Assembly: GCA_016192455.1 (NCBI GenBank)
Contig: JACPUC010000026.1
Coordinates: forward strand, 142,902-198,820
From: Candidatus Tectimicrobiota bacterium
GTDB lineage: Bacteria; JACPUC01
DNA: 55,919 bases
Reading direction: 5' to 3'
This document shows, in pieces, positions 49,926 to 51,109 of this stretch (within the stretch, counting starts at the first letter, position 1; every line of letters starts with the position of its first letter). The notes below the pieces were generated by a model. That model did no database searches. It had not been told where the DNA came from and saw only the letters and a program-made list of their open reading frames with translations. The position numbers were made by a program, and so were the translations under genes.

Positions 49926-50510
49926 ATGGAGATGCCGCGCAGCAACCTTCCACACCCGCAGCCGCTCGCCGGCTGGACCGGGAATCCCCTGCAAGGTGTT
50001 CCGCCGCCTCGTTACGCCTCACCCTACGCCGCCGGCGCCGCCCTTGGCGGCGTCCTCCTCCTCACCTTCCTGGTGATGGGGCATGGGCTGGGCGCCTCCG
50101 GCGCGTTCGCCCGCCTCGGCGTGGCCCTGCTCGGCTTGGCGGCGCCCGCGGCAACGAAGGCGCACGCCTACTTTTCGCTCTACCTCTCTCCGGACCGCTC
50201 CACCCTGAATGCCTGGATCGTCTATGAGGTAGTCGGCGTTCTCGTCGGCGCGTTCGTCAGCGGCCTGCTTGCCCGCCGCCTGAGGTGGGAGGCGGTACGC
50301 AGCCCCAACGCGCACCGCAGGCTGCGTCTGCCGCTGGCCCTGGTCGGCGGCGTCCTCGTCGGCTTCGCGGCGCGCCTGGCCGGCGGCTGCACGAGCGGCA
50401 TCGGCCTCTCCGGAGGCGCCGTCCTGGCGCTTGCCGGCTGGCTCTTCATCCTCTGTTTCTTCGCCGGCGGCTACCTTGCGGCCGCCGCGGTGCGGAGGGA
50501 ATGGCAATGA
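49926..50510 (+). CDS. YeeE/YedE-family half-size transporter subunit 1
   Basis: 194 aa inner-membrane protein with about four to five membrane segments. The signature is FAARLAGGCTSGIGLSGGAVL with C155, the conserved Cys of the first repeat in YeeE/YedE proteins. Members import thiosulfate (TsuA) or are linked to selenium metabolism. Full-length family members contain both repeats in one chain; here the repeats are in two genes and the second follows with an ATGA overlap. ATG 49926 with AAGGAG 8 nt upstream. Confidence 0.85.
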   Translation: MEMPRSNLPHPQPLAGWTGNPLQGVPPPRYASPYAAGAALGGVLLLTFLVMGHGLGASGAFARLGVALLGLAAPAATKAHAYFSLYLSPDRSTLNAWIVYEVVGVLVGAFVSGLLARRLRWEAVRSPNAHRRLRLPLALVGGVLVGFAARLAGGCTSGIGLSGGAVLALAGWLFILCFFAGGYLAAAAVRREWQ

Positions 50511-51109
50511 TGCCCCTGACCTCGCTGAACTTCTTCTCCCCCTGGCTGGCAACCCCGGCCGCCCTCCTCCTCGGCTTCGGCTTCGGCTTCTGGCTGGAAC
50601 GCGGCGGCCTCGGCAACGCCCGCAAGCTCACCGGCATGTTCTACTTGACCGATTTCGTCGTCGTGCGGGTCATGTTCAGCGCCGTGGTGGTCGCCGCCTT
50701 TGGTCTGGCCCTCTTCCAGGCGCTGGGCATTCTCGACCTGAAGCTGGTCTACCTCCCCCCCCTGGCACTCGGCGGCATCATCATCGGCGGCCTGCTCATG
50801 GGTATCGGGTTCGTCACCGGCGGGTATTGACCGGGAACCTCGGCCGCGGGCGCGGCCACGGGGAAGTGGGATGCCCTGGTGTTTATCGTGGGGATGGTGC
50901 TCGGGGTGTGGGGGTACGGCGCCGGCTATGCGCTCTTCGGGCCGCTGGGAGAGGCGGGTGATCTCGGCGTCATCACGCTGCAGGGCTTGCTGGGACTACC
51001 GACTCTGGTCGTGGTGGTGGCGGCGGCGGCCCTCGCCCTGGTTCTCTTCTGGCTCAGCGCGCGCCTCGAGCGCCCCGCCCGGCAGGAGAAACTCCCTGTC
51101 CAGCAGTAG
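50507..51109 (+). CDS. YeeE/YedE-family half-size transporter subunit 2, candidate selenoprotein (in-frame UGA = Sec108)
   Basis: 200 codons if the TGA at 50828-50830 is read through. Before it lie three membrane segments and the family lead-in GIIIGGLLMGIGFVTGGY; after it the same frame continues PGTSAAGAATGKWDALVFIVGMVLGVWGYG and two more membrane segments to a TAG at 51109. In the family the motif is GGY-C-PGT, so the TGA takes the exact place of the conserved Cys. A hairpin fitting the bacterial SECIS pattern lies at 50842-50857. Start ATG 50507 has GGAGG 8 nt upstream and overlaps the subunit-1 stop (ATGA). Alternatives are a nonsense mutation or a base error; the intact distal frame and the hairpin argue for selenocysteine. 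Confidence 0.78.
50842..50857 (+). promoter_or_regulatory. Candidate bacterial SECIS element
   Basis: GGCCGC-GGGC-GCGGCC, a perfect 6-bp stem with a loop that begins with G. The loop starts 17 nt after the TGA. Flanking CC (50838-50839) and GG (50860-50861) could extend the stem beyond a small internal loop. Bacterial SECIS hairpins lie just 3' of the UGA with a G in the first loop positions. SelB recognition itself is not proven. Confidence 0.55.

Follow-up and report, generated by a model that had tools for sequence, protein, structure and literature searches.

Closest described systems

Within the YeeE/YedE family (PF04143), the PmpAB/YedE1E2 transporters are encoded by two short half-genes with one conserved cysteine each. 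YedE1E2 of Cupriavidus, which is 59% identical to PmpA/PmpB, is an importer of zero-valent sulfur; changing either of its conserved cysteines to serine abolishes the uptake of zero-valent sulfur, and a persulfide hand-over has been proposed (PMC10812762). The cysteine of PmpB is the counterpart of Cys91 in TsuA and that of PmpA the counterpart of Cys293 (PMC11582611), and the TsuA cysteines form a relay line across the membrane (PMC11073785). TsuA/YeeE of Spirochaeta thermophila (6leo, 8k1r) is a single chain of about 340 amino acids with a third cysteine (Cys22).

A selenoprotein of the YeeE/YedE thiosulfate transporter family, WP_012471001.1, has already been catalogued with the motif GUxSG (PMC13188914, Table 1), and a different selenocysteine (Sec; U) motif makes a distinct subfamily in the scheme of that review (PMC13188914). 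Two papers cited for the GUxSG family (PLoS Genet 2008 and ISME J 2016) do not name YeeE in their main text. A more distant relative, the selenium metabolism membrane protein YedE/FdhT, has been described with Cys (PMC5322559).

A two-gene transporter with an in-frame UGA

The window, a stretch of 55,919 nucleotides from Candidatus Tectimicrobiota bacterium, carries a pair of YeeE/YedE half-genes, the second of which contains an in-frame UGA:

49926-50510 (strand +): first half-gene, PmpA/YedE1 type, C-terminal half of YeeE/YedE; 194 amino acids, Cys155 kept; PF04143
50507-50510 (strand +): ATGA shared by the stop of the first half-gene and the start of the second, as read in the sequence
50507-51109 (strand +): second half-gene, PmpB/YedE2 type, N-terminal half of YeeE/YedE; 200 amino acids with the TGA read as Sec; PF04143
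50828-50830 (strand +): predicted Sec codon UGA (residue 108 of the second half-gene, motif GGY-U-PGT); TGC, TGT or TGA in the 73-sequence alignment, and counterpart of TsuA Cys91 in the alignment to 6leo
50842-50857 (strand +): predicted apical hairpin of a bacterial SECIS, GGCCGC-GGGC-GCGGCC; loop start 17 nt after the UGA codon

The ATGA overlap suggests translational coupling of the two half-genes. The second half-gene is a single frame from the ATG at 50507 to the TAG at 51107-51109, with a lone internal TGA at codon 108. Both halves exceed the curated PF04143 cut-off of 27 bits: the read-through product of the second half-gene matches on both sides of the TGA (residues 38-193, profile positions 7-160, 54.5 bits), and the first half-gene matches profile positions 177-309 (83.2 bits). 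Cys155 of the first half-gene, encoded by TGC, lies in GGCTSG. The preliminary description of this DNA had placed the TGA exactly at the Cys of the family motif GGY-C-PGT, with the same frame and recognisable family sequence on either side, a normal TAG end and an upstream partner that retains its Cys; each of these statements is borne out. No further YeeE/YedE pair was found in the source genome.

In having adjacent half-genes with a C-terminal and an N-terminal match and one Cys or Sec each (Cys155, U108) at the same positions, the pair resembles PmpAB/YedE1E2 (CpYedE1/CpYedE2 of Cupriavidus, PmpA/PmpB of Serratia). It differs in that the second-half Cys is replaced by a predicted Sec and in that both halves are longer than the approximately 130 amino acids of those systems. 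The pair is very likely a YeeE/YedE transporter of this kind with Sec at codon 108, a judgement that concerns chiefly the Sec reading.

Profile comparison with solved structures places residue 108 on the relay cysteine Cys91 of TsuA/YeeE (6leo, E 1.2e-11). However, the half-genes have no counterpart of Cys22, and they score far from TsuA proper: NF052577/NF041049 gave 20.5 and 39.4 bits against 400 and 39.1 against 645 (20.5 against 400 for NF052577). An AlphaFold model of the half-protein had a pLDDT of 75 and a pTM of 0.57. Because a Foldseek search with this model returned zero matches, sequence profiles are the basis for placing the site in the pore. An Rfam scan of the locus gave nothing relevant.

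The window protein has in common with WP_012471001.1 the PF04143 domain and Sec in place of a conserved family Cys. Compared by listed motif, however, GUxSG fits GGUTSG in the partner half of two other pairs (L033, L042) or GGUGSG in a single-chain protein (L084), not the YUPGT of the window, where the UGA motif is GYUPGTS and the partner half, in which GUxSG would be expected, keeps Cys. The preliminary description could not tell whether such a protein had been described before: a YeeE/YedE selenoprotein had indeed been catalogued, but under a motif other than YUPGT, and no YUPGT form was found among the open-licence papers that the literature search covered.

Recurrence of the UGA in the family

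Position 108 is an invariant Cys in the family members examined. The aligned codon is TGC or TGT in the first 11 CPGT-motif homologues from other genomes, and among 73 distinct aligned sequences it is exclusively TGC, TGT or TGA, never TAA or TAG. The residues P109, G110, T111, G129 and G133 that follow are conserved.

A TGA-specific scan of 84,980 GTDB species genomes with a 53-base pattern (GG[YF]-TGA-PGT plus downstream G..D[AG]) produced 12 matches. Nine are genuine homologues of the window protein (E 5e-18 to 2e-51) in which the TGA is flanked on either side by a long open frame, from records labelled Acidobacteria, Deltaproteobacteria, Nitrospirae, Methylomirabilota and one unnamed bacterium; one of them, L033, ends 47 codons past the UGA and has a short or truncated C-terminal part. 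The other three matches, being random short frames, were rejected. A profile survey of 386 random unrelated genomes, made with no selection for TGA, detected the family in 67 at E 1e-15 or better and yielded four TGA copies besides that of the window (L066/L080, L081, L082 and the single-chain L084). With the window copy this gives 14 TGA copies, set against 59 Cys copies. Plasmid sequences searched by tblastn and viral contigs scanned with the TGA pattern gave zero matches.

In a maximum-likelihood tree of the 73 sequences, in which Sec copies are over-sampled through the pattern scan, the Sec label requires 7 changes, of which well-supported branches force at least 5. The window copy belongs to an all-Sec clade of four with L035, L043 and L066 (support 100/95). 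Judging from these label changes, Cys and Sec have been exchanged at the codon-108 site several times. Because unrelated bacteria carry the same substitution, the predicted Sec of the window gene is regarded as real and recurrent, not as a sequencing error. Comparison of four Acidobacteria gave dN/dS values of 0.06-0.18 beyond the UGA, close to the 0.04-0.13 found before it. In these bacteria the part of the protein encoded past the UGA remains functional and under purifying selection.

The UGA also occurs at the second relay site. Two gene pairs contain a TGA in both half-genes, in GGUTSG and GFUPGT:

L033:2143-3113: double-Sec two-gene transporter, hairpin after each TGA
L042: double-Sec two-gene transporter, partner TGA lying 422 nt upstream of the main one, hairpin after each

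Another pair (L101, genome G298) has a TGA in the partner half-gene only, at the Cys293-counterpart site, and a single-chain YeeE-like protein (L085, genome G273) has one only at its Cys293 counterpart; both have a hairpin downstream. As a separate observation, the single-chain YeeE-like gene L084:1932-2990 (genome G237) has its TGA at the Cys91 counterpart (GGUGSG) and is followed at L084:3238-3531 by a short ORF resembling a TusA/SirA-type protein.

SECIS-like hairpins and Sec machinery

Hairpins were scored by a rule formulated after the sequences had been inspected: a loop starting GG or AGG, 17-24 nt past the UGA codon, closed by 6 or more consecutive base pairs. All 14 TGA copies satisfy it, compared with 6 of 59 Cys copies. 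Under synonymous recoding with each sequence's own codon usage, 2.0 of the 14 TGA copies (14 observed) and 5.1 of the 59 Cys controls (6 observed) would be expected to do so. The nominal p of 8e-14 is too small, owing to kinship among the sequences and the post hoc rule; the contrast between TGA copies and Cys control is nevertheless clear. Two-sided changes that keep the pairing affect at least one stem pair within each of three separate groups, and the closing pair varies among C-G, U-G and U-A in the window's own clade. For the 53-nt segment of the window, minimum-free-energy folding is ordinary (z 0.19); the support for a SECIS comes from the conserved hairpin type and not from folding energy. 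A Cys (TGT) copy, L017/L102, from a genome with a strong tRNA-Sec (G023), retains a 7-bp hairpin with an AGGGC loop, possibly a SECIS relic after a reversal from Sec to Cys.

The source genome encodes a tRNA-Sec (75.5 bits, contig C8), SelB (366 bits) adjoining SelA (596 bits) on contig C23, and SelD (389 bits, contig C3). The selD gene (L046, G000:C3:190907-191827) has its own in-frame TGA and represents a second predicted selenoprotein. Three features expected of a bacterial selenoprotein gene are found here: an in-frame UGA at a position where homologues have Cys, seen in multiple lineages; a predicted SECIS hairpin immediately downstream with a G in the apical loop; and a complete selA/selB/selC/selD set in the genome. 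The preliminary description had proposed to look for these four genes, for Cys/UGA pairs in homologues and for frame-breaking changes past the TGA. The genes are all present, the pairs emerged from both the pattern scan and the 73-sequence alignment, and no such changes have accumulated, selection persisting downstream.

A tRNA-Sec above 57 bits is found in 12 of the 14 genomes with the TGA form. In two of the nine pattern-scan genomes (those of L036 and L037) no tRNA-Sec exceeds 45 bits, which may reflect incomplete bins. The same threshold is passed in 28 of 45 Cys-form genomes. Because the Cys form too occurs mostly in Sec-using genomes, the machinery by itself separates the two forms poorly, and tRNA-Sec presence, common in both, was rejected as a discriminator.

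Gene neighbourhoods

In the window, the pair is flanked by an upstream TrmB-like ORF, named from its sequence, and by a convergent molybdopterin oxidoreductase of no clear subtype. The window contains no sulfur genes co-operonic with the pair and no sel genes beside it. Elsewhere the surroundings include:

L044:3659-5050 (strand -): fusion of a cytochrome b561 domain to a PmpA half, lined up with genes for PhsA-like and FeS subunits
L043:3805-4662 (strand -): gene for the selenium-dependent molybdenum cofactor protein YqeB (TIGR03309, 238 bits) in a Methylomirabilota bin, immediately upstream of the Sec pair

In four Acidobacteria (L037, L039, L040, L044), the Sec copy directly follows such a b561-PmpA fusion; the domain assignment was tested in L044 and extended to L037, L039 and L040 through the matching ORF. 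Where the locus extends far enough, genes for an FeS protein and a PhsA-like molybdoenzyme precede the fusion, the L044 molybdoenzyme scoring 498 bits to PhsA against a cut-off of 694. The position of the fusion beside a molybdoenzyme makes a direct electron or sulfur link to the transporter possible. The acidobacterial Sec copies also have a rhodanese-type gene nearby, and L039 has in addition a short ArsR-type regulator and an OsmC-like protein. The ArsR-family regulator BigR controls YedE/YeeE elsewhere (PMC12170894).

Reading of the UGA and function of the pair

The UGA at codon 108 very probably encodes Sec. Decoding would rely on the SelABCD machinery of the same cell and be directed by the hairpin that follows the UGA. 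A TGA lies one base from TGT or TGC, the ancestral Cys codons, and could stem from a miscalled base or a recent nonsense mutation in a broken gene. This is extremely improbable, as TGA stands at the same codon in nine homologues from other genomes and phyla and in four survey copies, the window copy falls in a supported four-member Sec clade, all TGA copies have a SECIS-like hairpin, and selection continues past the TGA in relatives. The pseudogene and base-error readings were rejected on the recurrence of TGA at the exact site, the Sec clade and the downstream selection. Termination is the default reading of UGA, and a programmed stop giving a short product that ends at codon 107, with occasional read-through by an ordinary tRNA, is also very unlikely. 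Such a product would lose the invariant Cys and the conserved P109, G110, T111, G129 and G133; moreover, the surveyed site is Cys or TGA but never TAA or TAG, and Sec machinery and hairpins are present.

With UGA read as Sec, the substrate class is probably sulfane (zero-valent) sulfur, taken up into the cell; this is put forward with modest confidence as the likeliest function because of the YedE1E2 literature. A transporter of selenium compounds, as in YedE/FdhT and the M. maripaludis protein, is unlikely though by no means negligible. A link to selenium genes has been described for YedE TIGR04112 (PMC5322559), YqeB lies directly upstream of the L043 Sec copy, and the first window half shows distant homology to the selen_YedE_FdhT profile NF033796. 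The scores (48.2 bits for the first half and 18.2 bits for the other) are, however, far under the cut-off of 350; the window pair stands apart from the sel genes, with selA/selB on C23, tRNA-Sec on C8 and selD on C3; and the best-supported neighbourhood elsewhere consists of thiosulfate-reductase-like and rhodanese genes.

In sulfane-sulfur import, the two halves would form a heterodimer in which Sec acts as a relay nucleophile, with a final hand-over to a thiol acceptor inside the cell. A selenolate surpasses a thiolate both as nucleophile and as leaving group, and Sec would for that reason speed the relay step. The preliminary description had instead suggested that Sec couples selenium status to the uptake of sulfur or selenium compounds. 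That proposal is speculation, and the persulfide relay role appears better supported, given the YedE1E2 experiments.

Significance

Selenoproteins are for the most part redox enzymes. It would be unusual for a membrane importer, here one whose homologue has a solved structure, to have Sec in its transport path. The natural Cys/Sec swaps at the counterparts of Cys91 and Cys293, with several origins, make the transport chemistry testable: if sulfur moves by covalent persulfide exchange, Sec should speed its passage, whereas for passage by hydrogen bonding Sec should matter little. Genes for Sec transporters of this kind are likely annotated as truncated.

On balance, the YUPGT proteins (PmpB half) appear to form an uncatalogued Sec subfamily of sulfane-sulfur importers, in which Cys has repeatedly been replaced by Sec at either or both of the pseudo-symmetric relay sites. 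If so, these would be transporters with a selenium-containing transport path, double-Sec pairs included.
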